64,000 nucleotides of DNA from Monosiga brevicollis MX1 (taxonomy: Eukaryota; Opisthokonta; Choanoflagellata; Craspedida; Salpingoecidae). Numbering within the stretch: position 1 is the first letter of the stretch; the number at the start of each line of letters is the position of its first letter. A program made the position numbers and the translations under genes. The DNA is taken from the NCBI RefSeq assembly GCF_000002865.3, contig NW_001865067.1, positions 337,207 through 401,206 on the forward strand. The letters are read 5' to 3'. Positions 48,882 through 54,671 of the stretch are shown in pieces. Below the pieces are notes generated by a model. That model saw only the letters and a list, made by a program, of their open reading frames with translations, was not told where the DNA came from and ran no database searches.

Positions 48882-51800
48882 TTAAAGTTCTGTCTCATCG
48901 GTGGCAAAGGTCGGATTGACGACCAGGCCCTGCGTCGCCGGGGACGTGAGCCGTGCTAATATGGTGGTAGCCGGCGGTCGTTGCGTCGCAGGAACAGCCC
49001 ACGTCGAGGTTACCAAGCTGCCAGCACAAATCAAGCGAAGCGATGATCAGACATGTCACCCCAATCATTCCACAGCAACTTCCCCCCTCCGACCGCCACA
49101 TCCATGACTCACGCCTGCCAGTGTGCCGGAATGCGCTCCAAGCTCAGGCGCTTGCCGGCGTCCAGCATCTCAATCAGGACTTGAAATGACGCATTGCCGT
49201 ACGGTCGTTCGCCGTCGTTAAACACCTGCTCCACCCGAGTCCACCAAGGGAGAAAAGGGAAGGGAAATGAAGTACATAGAGTGGCACACATTGTCATGCC
49301 GGTGCTTTCAGAACACAGCTTGTTGGTACGTGGATTCATCCGACAAAATCGGCCACGCGTCAACACACCTCCCAAATTAAAATGCCCAGTGACCAGACGT
49401 CCGATTGCCAGCTAAAAACGCCGTGCCGCAAGGCCTCGGGGGCCATCCACCTAGTCAACACCCCCATCCGACAGTGTCAGTTGAGGTCCATGCACGGAAG
49501 GCCCTGACAATCGATCAAAAACGTGACGGACCGGAACGGCAAGTCATCCAACTGGGCTGCCCGGTAGTAATCGTGATCCTTGGATACAAAACGGCTGACT
49601 GTCTCAGGAAAAGGCACCAGTGGTTATGAGCCCCGGCGAGTCCCGTGCACCAACCCATCCCTTCCCGTCAACCAAATCCACATGTCCCTAGAGGTGCACG
49701 TACGCCCAAAGTCGCTCAGCTTGGCACACAGGCCAGCGGGCTGTGTGAAAAGTAACACATTGCGGCATGCCAAGTCCCGATGCACAAGGTCGCATCCATG
49801 AACGTAAGCCAAGGCATCGGTAACCTGCTCCACCCACAAGCTCTAGCACCATCGCCATGCAACAACAGCAACCCATGACAACCTGAAGCGCAATCTCAAG
49901 AGAAGACAATCCAAGATTGAAAAAAACAAAATATAAAAAAAAAAGGAACAAGATTGTCTTACCTTGGTGTTGGTCGTCAACTGGCCTATCCGTTTGCGTA
50001 AGTGTGTGCGCAAATCTCCTTGATCCGCAAATTCGAGCACGAGAGCAATCGGAATGCTGCGACGGCCCGGCCACCAGGTTGGCACACGGTCAAAACACAA
50101 GTTGCCACCTGCTCGAAGCTGAAAGCAGTTTGAAGTTCTCCCCCCTCATCAGGCGGCAAGGTCAACGCACCAGTCGTGAACCACGCCCACGAGTTGCACG
50201 ATATGAGAATGATTGCCCGCCGTGTGCAGAAGCGCCGCTTCCAGCATCACCGCTTTAAAGTCGGATTCCTAACCACCAAACCACGTACACCAAGCAAAGC
50301 CACAGTCAGCAACCGTGTGCCATCATTACCTACCTAATCAGATCCCTTTCCCGCTAATCAGATCCCTCTCCGGTTTCTCAATTCCAAGTAGGATTGAACA
50401 GCCATTTTGAGGGCCAATGTCATTGCTTCGTACCTCGATACGCTCAAACGTCTTTAGTGCTAGCACAGCGCGGCCCTGAAGTTCGCTTGCGTGTCGCAGA
50501 GGCACGGCCTGAAATTTCACATCAGAAGAAACGATGATTTGTACCCAAACAAGAGCAGAGTCACTTTGCAGTTGGGCTTTGAATGGCTTCTGCACGCGCG
50601 TGGCACTAAGTGAAGCACGAAACAGACGAGACTTACTCTGTGTACGGTGCCGAAATGGCCGTGGCCCACCACGGCCCTAACATCCAGCCAAGTTCTGCAT
50701 AATAATATCACATGGGGTCACAGGTTAGCAAGACCAAAGGTCAGCTACTTTGCAAGCACCATGACTGTGTAAATTGCCAACCCAACGCACCGAGACACAA
50801 GATTGAGTGAACGGGTTGTTGTGGTCGAGGACGGGTCAAGACCGGCATTTCGCGCGCAGCTGGCTTGAAATTGGGACAGGCATAGTTGTATCTGCTCGGC
50901 TGATGACATTGGCATGGTGTTGTCACCATATAGGGCTTGTCGCACCGCATTGAAGCGCTTCCGGCGATAGCGAGCGGTCAAGACCACGCCAAATACCAGC
51001 GCCACTAGCGCAACCACAACCACAACCACAACCACAACCACATGGTCCGACGACCCTGACGCGGTAGATGGCACCAACAGAGGTGACGACGCGGAAGGGA
51101 CTGCCGTTGTGCTGTGCAGAACCAGGTTTCGCAAAAAAAAAAAAAAAAAAAAAAAGCAGAGAGAGAGTGGGAGGAAAGGTTCAGCAAAATTAGCAAGATG
51201 GCGCCGTCTAATACAAGCCCTTGCAGTGGCTCCCTTCAGCGTACCTCCGAGTCGGTGCCGCAGTTGTCACTGGACCTCGCGTTGAGTTCCTCCGACTACC
51301 GATAGGCCATTGATTCGAGTGCAAGAAGAGGTTGGTGGGTGCAAATTAACAAGAGGCCGCAAAAGAGCGACGACATACCCCGGATTATGAAACCATTGAA
51401 TATCTCCGGCCCGCATCGCTGGGCTCAGGATATCAAGTCGAGTGTCGTTGTCAAAATCTGCAGCAGCCACCCAGCTTGCTCCATACAGTTCCGTCGTCAA
51501 GACGACTGGTACTGGAACAAATGTACCGTCGCCCAGATTTTCGAACCACGCCACCGTGTTTCCAGAGATGCCAGACACCAGGACATCTTGGTCACCGTCG
51601 CCGTCCAAGTCGACGGCCGAAATGGCCGAGGCCCCATTAATGGAGGTTGAAATGACACGTTCCTGAAAGTTGAAGTTGCCATCTCCGTCATTGACGTACC
51701 AAGCAACCTTATTATCATTTATGCTGGCGCTGAGCACGTCCAAGTCGCCATCATTATCAAGGTCGGCGGCAAAAACACCCCGCACGCCGTCAGCAGAGGC

Positions 51801-54671
51801 GGTGATGACGAGCTCGGTACCAAAGCCAGCCGCCCCGTTGTTCCGATACCACGAGATCCGGTCATTGCCATAGTTGGCACTCAGCACGTCCAAATCCCCG
51901 TCATCGTCCAGGTCGGCTGCAAACAGGCCCCACGGCATGTGTGCAGTGGTTGACAGGGGCGTGGCCGGCCCAAACTCGCCTTGGCCATTGTTGCGGTGCC
52001 AAACAATTGTGTTATCATCGCCCCGTCCTACCACAGCGTCCAACGCCCCGTCGCCATCAAGATCTGCGGCAAGAACTGCTACAGCCCCCGCCGCTGCTGT
52101 AGAGATGAAGCGCGGCTCATCGGCAAAATGACCCCCGCCGTTGTTTTGGAACCAGGCCACTTGATCCAGGCCCGAGCCTGCGCACAAAATATCGAGGTCC
52201 TGATCGTTGTCGAGGTCGGCCACGGCCAAGCTCATGATGGTCAGGATCTGCTGGGATATAATGTGCTGAGTACCCGTGAAGGCCCCGTTGCCTGGATTGG
52301 GGTACCATGTCAGGCGACTATCGTCCGTGCTGGCCGACACCACATCAATATGTCCATCACCGTTGAGATCACCGGGCACGGCCATGAGTGGCCGGTGCAC
52401 AAAAGCGGGCAAGACGCGGGCTTGGGAAAAGGCTGGTTTGATCCCGATGCTGCGAAACCACGTCACAGTGTTGTCAAAAGCGTCGCCGCAGAGAATGTCA
52501 GGTAGGCCGTCGCCATCGAGATCAACCACGTCCATGCTCTGCAGAAAAAGGATGTTGGCGAAGCGAATGGGCACTGAAGCGGCAAACGTTCCCGCACCCT
52601 CATTGCCAAACCATGACAGGGCTCCACTGTTTTGCGCCACCAGAATGTCCAAGCTGCCGTCCAAAGTGAGGTCAGCCAGGCGCACGAAGAGGACATCCGG
52701 CAGCTGTTGGCTGATCACATGTTCGACAAAGTGACCAAGACCGTCGTTGTGATACCAGGCAAGCTTTGCATCATGCAGGCTAGCACACACGATATCGAGC
52801 ACGCCGTCGCCATCCATGTCTGCGGGCTGGGCTTGTACGGGACCCTGTGTTTGACTCGTGACGAGCAACCACCCGGAAGCAAAGGAGCCGTTGCCCATGT
52901 TACGTAGCCATTCGATGGCATGGCGCTGAAAGACGCAGCGAATCACGTCCACGTGACCGTCGCCGTCGAGATCGGCGGTGCTGAGACAGCTCGGTGGGTA
53001 TTCAAGCTGGGCAACCAGGCTCGGGGTATCAAACTGACCCAGGCCGTTATTGGCACACCAAGCGAGGCGAGCTTGCGCCGCATCAAGAAAGAGCACATCT
53101 GGGTGGCCGTTGCCGTCGAGGTCAGCCACCGTGGTCGAGAGAATGGCATGGCTTGAGCTATAGAGCAGTTGGGCTGGCGCAGTGGCAAAGTTACCGGCAC
53201 CATCATTGCGGGCCCAGGCCAGATGGGAGTCCTGATCCTGGTCTTTGAAAGCATAGAGAAGATCGAGGTTCCCATCGCTGTCCAGATCGCGGACAAACAA
53301 GGCCTGCGGGCCGATGGGGTGGGCTACCACGGCGCGGGGTGCGTCAAAAGCTAGGCTCTCATTGGCCAAGTTGAGGGAGCGGCGCCAGGCCACCGAGTGG
53401 GCGTTTTTGGTGAAAGAGCCCAGGATCAAGTCCACCCGGCCATCGTGGTCCAGATCACCCGTGGTGGCCAGCGCATAGCGCGCTGCCAGGGTCTGGGGTC
53501 TATCAAATTGTACGCGTGGTCCCTCGTGCCGGTACCAGGCCACCTTGTCGTCGGCGAAGCTCGCACTCACCATATCGGGCAAACCATCGGCGTCCAAATC
53601 CGCGGCAGCAACTGCGGCAGCGCCCCAGCTGTCGGTGGAAACCACGTTGGGGGATGAAAAGGCAGCCCCATTGCCCAGATTGTGGTACCACACGATGGTA
53701 TTATTGATGGCCTGAGCAGCCAAAACATCGAGATGGCCATCGTTGTCGAAATCCACGGCAAAAGCGCTCACGGCACCATTGGCGGCGGCATCGATAATGC
53801 GGCGTCGTGGTTCAAAGGTGGCGTTGCCGAGGTTGCGAAACCAAGCAACCTGTTCTTGGCCAGCGGCGGCAACGAGGACGTCGAGGTGACCGTCACCATC
53901 AAGGTCGGCGGCCTGGACATCAAAGGCACCAAGGACGCTGCTTGTGGCCACGCGCTCGGCATTTCCGAACAAACCGGCGCCATCGTTGCGAAACAGCAGG
54001 ACGCCGTTGGCCGTGAAGCAGGCACACAAGAGGTCCATGTCTCCGTCCGCGTCCATGTCTGCGGCGAAGACGTCCTTGACGCCCCACACTTGGCGCGAGA
54101 CAACGTGGCGCTGGAGGTACAGGCCGCCTCGACGGTTGTTGGGATACCAAGCCACCGAGTTGTCCCCGGCGCTGGCGCTGATGACGTCCACATAGCCGTC
54201 ACCATCAACGTCGGCGGTGGCCACCGAAGACACGCCCAAAACGCTGACAGCGATGATTTCGGGCAGCGTGCTGATGGTGCCGTTGTTGTTGCGGTACCAG
54301 GCGACCAGGTCATCGTTGGTCAAGCCGGCGACGACGTCGAGCCAGCCATCGCCGTTGATGTCTGCAGTCGTCACAGTACTCACGCCACCAGCACTGGTCG
54401 AGATGATACGCGGGGTGTGCTCAAAAGAGCCGTTTCCGAGGTTGGCAAACCAACAGATGGTATTGTCGTTCGAACTCACGCTCACAATGTCCGGCAGACT
54501 GTTGTTGTCGAGGTCGGCCAGCGTGAGTGCGATGGGGCCGTCGAGACGCCCCAGGACGCTGGTCGCCGCCCAATCCCCATCCGCAGCCACCAACCCAACC
54601 CAGCAAAAGCCAACAGTCAGCACCAAGAGCCGGGCCATTGAGAGCAAGCGGTGCGCGTCCGGACCCAACAT
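48882..54671 (-). CDS. Receptor tyrosine kinase with 21 FG-GAP/VCBS repeats
   Basis: Twelve exons: 54671-51379, 51295-51245, 51111-50791, 50694-50637, 50508-50434, 50268-50167, 50118-49963, 49842-49704, 49598-49523, 49450-49369, 49225-49113 and 49017-48882. They sum to 4,602 nt, 1,533 residues, all phases closing. Signal peptide: [19 protein letters not shown], or an ATG 11 codons upstream. Residues about 45-1097 hold 21 repeats of about 50 residues, each with a DxDxDG-type Ca loop ([15 protein letters not shown]) and a (V/I)xW(F/Y) strand. The membrane helix is a Val run then [11 protein letters not shown] (about 1140-1160), followed by ARYRRKR. Kinase: [16 protein letters not shown] (Lys), MLEAALL (Glu), [26 protein letters not shown] (candidate autophosphorylation Tyr pair), WMAPEAL and [15 protein letters not shown] is diagnostic of tyrosine kinases. 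The lobe end lacks the usual CW-x6-RP in this model. The ligand is unknown. Confidence 0.9.

Follow-up and report, generated by a model that had tools for sequence, protein, structure and literature searches.

Excerpts of PMC10263333 count 88 receptor tyrosine kinases in the choanoflagellate Monosiga brevicollis and name among them a family called FGTK, and excerpts of PMC3584944 state that, in 2013, none of the receptor tyrosine kinases of this species had a known extracellular ligand. The RTKC8 and RTKB2 proteins of M. brevicollis have active kinase domains (same excerpts), as predicted for the receptor described here. This receptor is encoded on the minus strand, from 54671 to 48882, of a 64,000-nucleotide stretch of the M. 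brevicollis MX1 genome (contig NW_001865067.1, positions 337,207 to 401,206; hereafter, the window), and its predicted ectodomain consists of 21 FG-GAP/VCBS repeats. The FGTK family reportedly goes back to Manning et al. in PNAS in 2008. By analogy with the name LRTK, the FG in FGTK most likely stands for FG-GAP. On that reading, the window gene has what the name describes, a receptor tyrosine kinase with an FG-GAP ectodomain in M. brevicollis, and it is probably a member of the published family, which is set apart by name in the same organism and is likened to our gene by name and ectodomain type only. FG-GAP receptor kinases have probably been catalogued already as FGTK; beyond this mention, we found no earlier account of such kinases in choanoflagellates in the open literature, subscription papers lying outside the search.

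The receptor differs from RTKC8 and RTKB2 at both ends. According to the excerpts cited above, the ectodomains of those proteins are built from Cys-rich, HYR and EGF elements, and their tails are long with tyrosines (RTKC8) or carry RM2 repeats (RTKB2), whereas the tail of the window receptor is short and of the PDZ type. Among described propellers, the integrin alpha propeller resembles the predicted propellers of the window receptor in having seven blades, calcium loops and an N-terminal strand that completes the last blade, and it is defined by an FG pair and a GAP tripeptide in each blade and by a Cage motif (PMC3192720, in excerpt). VCBS-like propellers typically bind carbohydrate, and some bind protein (PMC9218822, in excerpt).

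Gene structure and kinase domain

Eleven exons with GT-AG borders unite in one frame that encodes a receptor of 1,492 residues, with a signal sequence, the 21 repeats, a membrane helix and a complete tyrosine kinase. The splice search that produced this model demanded GT-AG borders and an unbroken frame, and joined all kinase pieces. The ends of the gene are an ATG at 54671 and a TAA at 48884-48882, and the G+C content by codon position (65, 45 and 67%) is coding-like. Exon 1 (51379-54671; this and all other features of the gene are on the minus strand) holds the signal sequence, judged by eye from a hydrophobic N-terminus, and all 21 blades, in residues 1-1097 plus two bases. The membrane helix, which is V-rich and followed by RYRRKR, shares an exon with the juxtamembrane region (50791-51111), in which a juxtamembrane motif was located by comparison with paralogues (50865-50918); the donors at 50791 and 50749 score equally, and 50791 was used. 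The 12 most hydrophobic 19-residue windows of the joined 1,492-residue model all begin at residues 1117-1128, corresponding to a single membrane helix.

The kinase is distributed over exons containing the P-loop GHGHFG (50637-50694), the beta-3 lysine in VLALKTF (50434-50508), the alpha-C glutamate (50171-50268), the hinge (49963-50056), the HRDLACRN catalytic loop with DFG (49704-49842), the activation loop with twin tyrosines, HDYYRAAQ (49532-49598), FRWMAPEAL with SDVWSLG (49369-49450), and the C-terminal part of the kinase (49113-49225). The last exon (48882-49017) encodes kinase subdomain XI (W..P..RP) and a short tail, and includes the stop codon. For the catalytic-loop exon, the acceptor at 49842 and the donor at 49704 were chosen over higher-scoring sites (49824 and 49682, respectively) because they reproduce the sequence of the paralogues (SLWVEQV..., DFGLSRF).

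The original prediction placed two small exons between ectodomain and kinase. The joins that it described do keep the frame, but one of these exons, of 51 nucleotides (51245-51295), is unproven. It would add a 17-residue linker and is in frame yet dispensable, since the direct join of 51379 to 51111 is likewise in frame; the receptor has 1,492 residues without this exon and 1,509 with it, counting the stop as one position. Inspected by eye, the acceptor of the 51-nucleotide exon (51296) lacks a clear pyrimidine tract; the acceptor preceding 51111 reads ...ttctgcacag.

The joined kinase exons match the tyrosine kinase profile PF07714 with an E-value of 1e-61 and 209 bits over profile positions 5-258 of 258, in agreement with the full kinase predicted originally. 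The same kinase, which has a tyrosine-kinase signature, scores 126 bits against PF00069. Catalytic motifs are all present (GHGHFG, ALK, the alpha-C E, HRDLACRN and DFG). The YY pair of the activation loop recurs in all five other loops read, at loci of the genome that we call L009, L010, L012, L037 and L038. As judged from its sequence, the gene encodes a receptor tyrosine kinase with complete catalytic motifs: a signal sequence, an extracellular domain, one membrane helix and a kinase are found in one protein, as had been proposed.

A subfamily of about twelve receptors

We searched the M. brevicollis genome (39.5 Mb in 57 contigs) with the peptide of the catalytic-loop exon. The species agrees with a 33-nt gene-specific portion of the reverse primer for M. 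brevicollis RTKC8 (PMC10263333, in excerpt), which has a single exact match in this genome, next to a tyrosine-kinase hit on C21. Twelve loci score at least 43 bits (62-100% identity), after which the score falls to 35.6 bits, at 50% identity; by this relationship, the window gene is a member of a receptor tyrosine kinase subfamily of about twelve genes. An FG-GAP frame lies on the same strand a few kb upstream of the kinase at nine of the twelve loci, so that an architecture unique to the window gene is ruled out. Upstream of a tenth kinase (C40:238878, in L038) the assembly reads N, and the remaining two loci (C47:677700 and C40:666812) have no FG-GAP match at 1e-10 among the best candidates, to which that search was confined.

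In the window gene, L009, L010, L012 and L037, the sequence can be followed from blades to kinase by way of the membrane helix and the juxtamembrane motif. At L041, blades and membrane helix share one frame, and L039, L040 and L042 are linked by position alone. The kinase cores of the window gene, L009, L010 and L012 show 58-59% identity across an alignment of 193 residues, and these four genes have in common the juxtamembrane motif T-x-[PA]-M-S-[SA]-A-x-Q-I-x-[LM]-C-L-x-Q-F, to which that of L037, PMSAAGQLELCL, is related. L037, a relative with 14 blades, also has several hundred residues of unassigned sequence between propellers and membrane helix, in a frame following the propellers (oriented 4083-5993, minus strand).

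These relatives bear on whether the window holds one gene or two. The blades might belong to a secreted protein whose gene has been misjoined, across the intron 51378-51112, to that of a separate receptor kinase, given that the genome has many stand-alone FG-GAP genes and that the donor following 51379 (GTATGT) matches just 6 of 9 consensus positions. However, the frame is preserved across the predicted join, and the order of blades, membrane helix, juxtamembrane motif and kinase is seen again in L009, L010 and L012. In L012, moreover, blades, membrane helix and juxtamembrane motif all fall within one uninterrupted 962-codon frame. We regard the two-gene explanation as highly improbable, and a single gene for ectodomain and kinase as supported; the GT-AG joins keep the frame throughout, as the claim of a consistent phase from the ectodomain exon to the kinase would have it.

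Twenty-one blades in probable units of seven

The ectodomain contains 21 D-hyd-[DNT]-x5-D motifs, spaced 48-56 residues apart within one open exon, and 17 of the 21 repeats also match the strict pattern D-x-[DN]-x-[DN]-G-x-x-D. In 1,000 composition shuffles, the loose motif occurred 0.35 times on average (maximum 3) and the strict motif 0.04 times (maximum 2). The Pfam profile FG-GAP_3 matches the ectodomain in 18 stretches (E = 7e-181), which, like the PF07714 match, bears out the domain assignment made originally, and a scan with NCBIfam gave sub-cut-off matches only. We also built a hidden Markov model (HMM) of the repeat, with 50 positions, from 302 repeat segments, subsequently deduplicated, of 47 open reading frames (ORFs), the window's own repeats included; in the window ectodomain it recognizes 21 domains that score more than 3 bits. 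Motif count, HMM and shuffles thus agree with the 21 repeats of about 50 residues with calcium loops that had been counted by reading.

Tandem blades of about 50 residues with a D-x-D-x-D-G loop, seven per unit, are what characterizes VCBS/FG-GAP seven-bladed propellers, and it had been suggested that 21 stands for three times seven. The clearest case is that of blades 15-21 (residues 750-1097; 51381-52424), placed by alignment and by an AlphaFold model. They align end to end with 11 stand-alone seven-blade paralogues at 37-46% identity. AlphaFold (AF2), given 26 bacterial rows, folds them with a predicted local distance difference test (pLDDT) of 94.4 and a predicted template modelling score (pTM) of 0.92 into 28 strands, or seven times four, the ring being read from strand counts rather than viewed in coordinates. 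The first of these strands, RVL at 752-754, lies ahead of blade 15. Blade 21 is truncated and lacks its outer strand, as do the last blades of aligned relatives, and the N-terminus can supply one. Closure by a strand from elsewhere, as suggested in the original prediction, fits this recurrence and the strand that precedes the first blade. Propeller 1 would comprise blades 1-7 (approximately residues 32-385; 53517-54578), opening with the closing strand ATSVLG, and propeller 2 blades 8-14 (approximately residues 386-749; 52425-53516); the boundary between them is set by the seven-blade period and by a low-confidence stretch that starts at residue 386, and both ends of propeller 2 are estimates of this kind.

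Blade totals point to the same unit. Counted as HMM domains over 3 bits, the nine readable ectodomains of the subfamily have 21 (window), 14 (L009, L037 and L042), 20 (L010), 19 (L039) and 13 blades (L012, L040 and L041). The five with 20, 19 or 13 contain gaps of about 100 residues, with space for a degenerate blade, and filling these by spacing gives 21, 21, 14, 14 and 14. All nine totals are then multiples of seven, 14 in six and 21 in three, where four counts are purely by HMM and five include one or two weak blades filled in by spacing.

Among shorter FG-GAP ORFs with at least three motifs, 27 of 34 have exactly seven; the remaining seven have 3-6, several of them looking like cut frames, and the HMM adds an extra weak match (8) in 2 of the 27. 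These non-receptor loci come from 150 scored among 543 candidates and represent the best-conserved ones. The stand-alone seven-blade genes look secreted by eye, carry a small domain (PSIxVDExGTLxIN...NGxDV) ahead of the blades, and end directly after a truncated seventh blade. In L011, whose 4.4 kb of downstream sequence contain no kinase motif, a 1,266-codon frame (4388-8185, minus strand) contains 7+7+7 blades parted by linker copies of such a small domain.

Relatives include bacterial tandem VCBS/FG-GAP proteins (Bacteroidota, Planctomycetota and others), one of which, for example, matches query residues 4-352 with 46% identity in the best segment (L043). In closed ORFs, their repeat runs are of 7 (37 runs), 14 (25), 21 (1) and 8 blades (7), with one run each of 6, 10, 15 and 16 and a stray 1, so that 63 of 75 equal 7, 14 or 21 under the same spacing fill. 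This set comprises the 80 top-ranking of at least 339 confirmed stretches, found with a profile whose first row was blades 15-21 and restricted to closed ORFs with at least four domains; the query length biases matches toward seven or more blades, but not toward 14. These relatives are compared by their blades alone, the window gene being joined to a kinase.

Several observations count against a partition into sevens. The AlphaFold (AF2) model of the full ectodomain, with 17 bacterial rows, has a pLDDT of 73.3 and a pTM of 0.45 and does not resolve 7+7+7, such that the seven-blade unit is demonstrated by folding for blades 15-21 only. Similarity at a lag of seven blades gives no signal within proteins (the observed value was reached by 152 of 500 shuffles); between proteins it is very weak (1 of 500 shuffles, with an effect of 0.017 BLOSUM units per column), and we dropped it as proof of whole-propeller duplication. 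The nine subfamily counts are partly dependent through shared descent. Internal seventh blades score low, with a mean of 30.3 bits versus 41.5 in shuffles (42 of 10,000 were as low, filled-in blades being scored 0). Across the nine receptors, however, the dip is deeper with a period of 8 at phase 6 than with a period of 7, so the weak seventh blades are merely supportive.

The 21 blades might accordingly be divided otherwise, as 8+6+7, for example, or form one open superhelix. The poor full-length model, the missing lag-7 signal, the deeper period-8 dip and the 12 of 75 bacterial runs that are not multiples of seven would all suit such arrangements, as would the report that the number of blades is variable among highly repetitive VCBS-like propellers (median 6; PMC9218822, in excerpt). 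They leave unexplained why totals of 7, 14 and 21 recur in receptors, stand-alone paralogues and bacteria, why blades 15-21 fold as a seven-blade propeller and why internal seventh blades are weak. The full-length model also has one low-confidence stretch starting at 386 and another at 750-760, the two places at which the joints of 7+7+7 are expected, although the first is broad (386-465) and additional short ones occur (370-377, 467-474 and 496-500), making this weak support. We consider another partition improbable, and an arrangement of three seven-bladed propellers, each predicted to be closed by an outer strand located before its first blade, to be well supported. Structure prediction has upheld this arrangement for blades 15-21 and left it unresolved for the full ectodomain.

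Probably lectin-like rather than integrin-like propellers

A profile search of the PDB matched seven distinct sequences at 0.01, of which the best were the fungal lectin PVL of Psathyrella velutina (2e-17), an Agrocybe lectin that binds N-acetylglucosamine (GlcNAc) (7e-13) and PAL (4e-10), followed by cartilage acidic protein 1 (2e-9) and integrin alpha-4 (0.001 and 0.0023). Only the profile search succeeded; phmmer with the single ectodomain found no PDB match at 0.01. When the model of blades 15-21 was submitted to Foldseek, the best six chains were PVL or Agrocybe GlcNAc lectins, with template modelling (TM) scores of 0.60-0.65, and PVL, Agrocybe or PAL GlcNAc lectins made up seven of the best eight. 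A Foldseek search with the full ectodomain (TM 0.18-0.27 for the 50 matches listed, which were megalin and further multi-propeller proteins, DDB1 for the most part) was set aside as meaningless, given the pTM of that model.

PVL, whose propeller is seven-bladed, binds GlcNAc and is the best solved relative (2bwm/4up4; Foldseek E-value 1e-12, TM 0.65/0.58). It is a single soluble propeller without a kinase. The relationship to PVL-type lectins in sequence and fold is distant, and two points caution against reading a lectin function from it. The window receptor is only 21-22% identical, at TM 0.60-0.65, and several non-lectins superpose better at weaker E-values, namely aldos-2-ulose dehydratase (TM 0.76-0.78), LGI1 (0.73-0.77) and a KICSTOR subunit (0.68-0.72). 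Because PVL-type GlcNAc lectins are the best-scoring solved relatives, we infer that the propellers are calcium-stabilized multivalent binders, most likely of carbohydrate.

The gene had been proposed to encode an integrin-like adhesion sensor. An integrin-like receptor would bind protein ligands, from the matrix or other cells, through a face of its propellers in the manner of integrin alpha heads, and the calcium-loop propellers of both belong to one superfamily (Pfam FG-GAP). Integrin alpha-4 is in the profile matches given above, and the 50 Foldseek matches listed include alpha-v and alpha-5 integrin chains as well as an atypical integrin. However, the E-values of the lectins are far better, and the 21 blades (1,097 residues) lack both the GAP tripeptide and the Cage motif, with FG found four times, so the features that define an integrin alpha propeller are absent. 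The window receptor also differs from integrin alpha in having three propellers rather than one and its own kinase rather than a beta partner. The integrin-like part of the original prediction finds little backing here, and we think such a mode of binding unlikely.

The C-terminal tail

The window receptor ends in E-T-E-L (48885-48896), which fits the class I PDZ ligand pattern X-[S/T]-X-hydrophobic and is thus a predicted PDZ-binding motif, and its paralogues end similarly. Tails were read at 9 of the 12 loci: DETEL (window), TESEL (L009), VESEL (L010), EESSL (L012), SESVL (C22), AESVL (C17), AESAM (C31), AESEL (C52) and DISRL (C47, one of the two loci without a detected FG-GAP match). All nine end in [ST]-x-[LM], and eight in E-[ST]-x-[LM]. 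The latter pattern ends 5 of 5,028 stop-ended frames (at least 40 residues, mostly not genes), and four of these five, judging from their letters, can only be the receptors themselves; binomial figures for the motif assume independence and are not valid as probabilities here. The sequence ahead of the motif varies strongly among paralogues, which suggests selection on the last residues. Against a role in PDZ binding, a C-terminal motif is not itself binding, tails of related genes are not independent counts, and Met, the final residue of one of the eight E-type tails, is not among the usual F, I, L and V.

A PDZ domain of M. brevicollis binds QSESRL with a KI of 64 uM, and Glu at position -3 was suggested by the authors to give the most energy among the non-motif residues (PMC8512817, in excerpt). 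Titles and opening lines of abstracts among the papers listed from the open literature report no PDZ-type tails of choanoflagellate kinases, and, as far as we searched, the E-[S/T]-x-[L/M] tail common to the subfamily is new. Several tails also have an N-P-x-F-like motif before the PDZ-type end (NPTF, NPVF, NPFT and NPMA; 48882-48917 in the window, and paralogues), a candidate signal for PTB binding or endocytosis.

Other FG-GAP frames and the surroundings of the gene

Stand-alone FG-GAP genes form clusters at C12:45-60 kb and 169-181 kb, C40:731-751 kb and C43:767-790 kb (L013-L023). Those viewed closely have the small domain and seven blades, and copies with shorter frames may be broken tandem duplicates. 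A 1,220-codon FG-GAP frame at C34:69138-72449 (plus strand) has no subfamily kinase exon nearby, as searched with the catalytic-loop peptide. The stretch C7:86555-87166 lies inside a 29,192-codon open frame that most likely consists of N, like the unread sequence in L038. In the window, long GA/CT-rich simple repeats are present on both flanks of the receptor gene (54890-55180 and 48200-48330), and an ORF at 60310-61194 (plus strand) with a Utp12 domain (E = 4e-19) is presumably a ribosome-biogenesis gene.

Possible function and implications

Taken together, the window gene probably encodes a receptor that binds glycans and is anchored to a PDZ scaffold; its ligand, activity and scaffold are putative. 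Binding of a ligand, such as bacterial or extracellular-matrix glycans, would cluster receptors, and the clustered kinases could then phosphorylate one another at the YY pair. Since it has no tyrosine in its tail, the receptor may be positioned and connected to signalling through a PDZ scaffold protein instead of recruiting SH2 proteins to that tail. Experimental handles are a single stable propeller (blades 15-21) for glycan arrays and the last ten residues for a scaffold pull-down.

Although this type of receptor is probably known already, its design in sevens and its common tail are useful clues. The blade counts suggest that the propeller lineage was lengthened in whole seven-blade units. 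A broader scenario, which we advance as speculative and rather doubtful, is that a bacterial-type seven-blade lectin cassette, added in units of seven, gave rise to some twelve lectin receptor kinases, anchored through PDZ domains, that read glycans of prey or matrix, and that no fewer than 27 stand-alone paralogues with a single propeller serve as their soluble partners or decoys. If true, M. brevicollis would sense glycans with a phosphotyrosine system that is older than, or parallel to, the adhesion signalling of animals.

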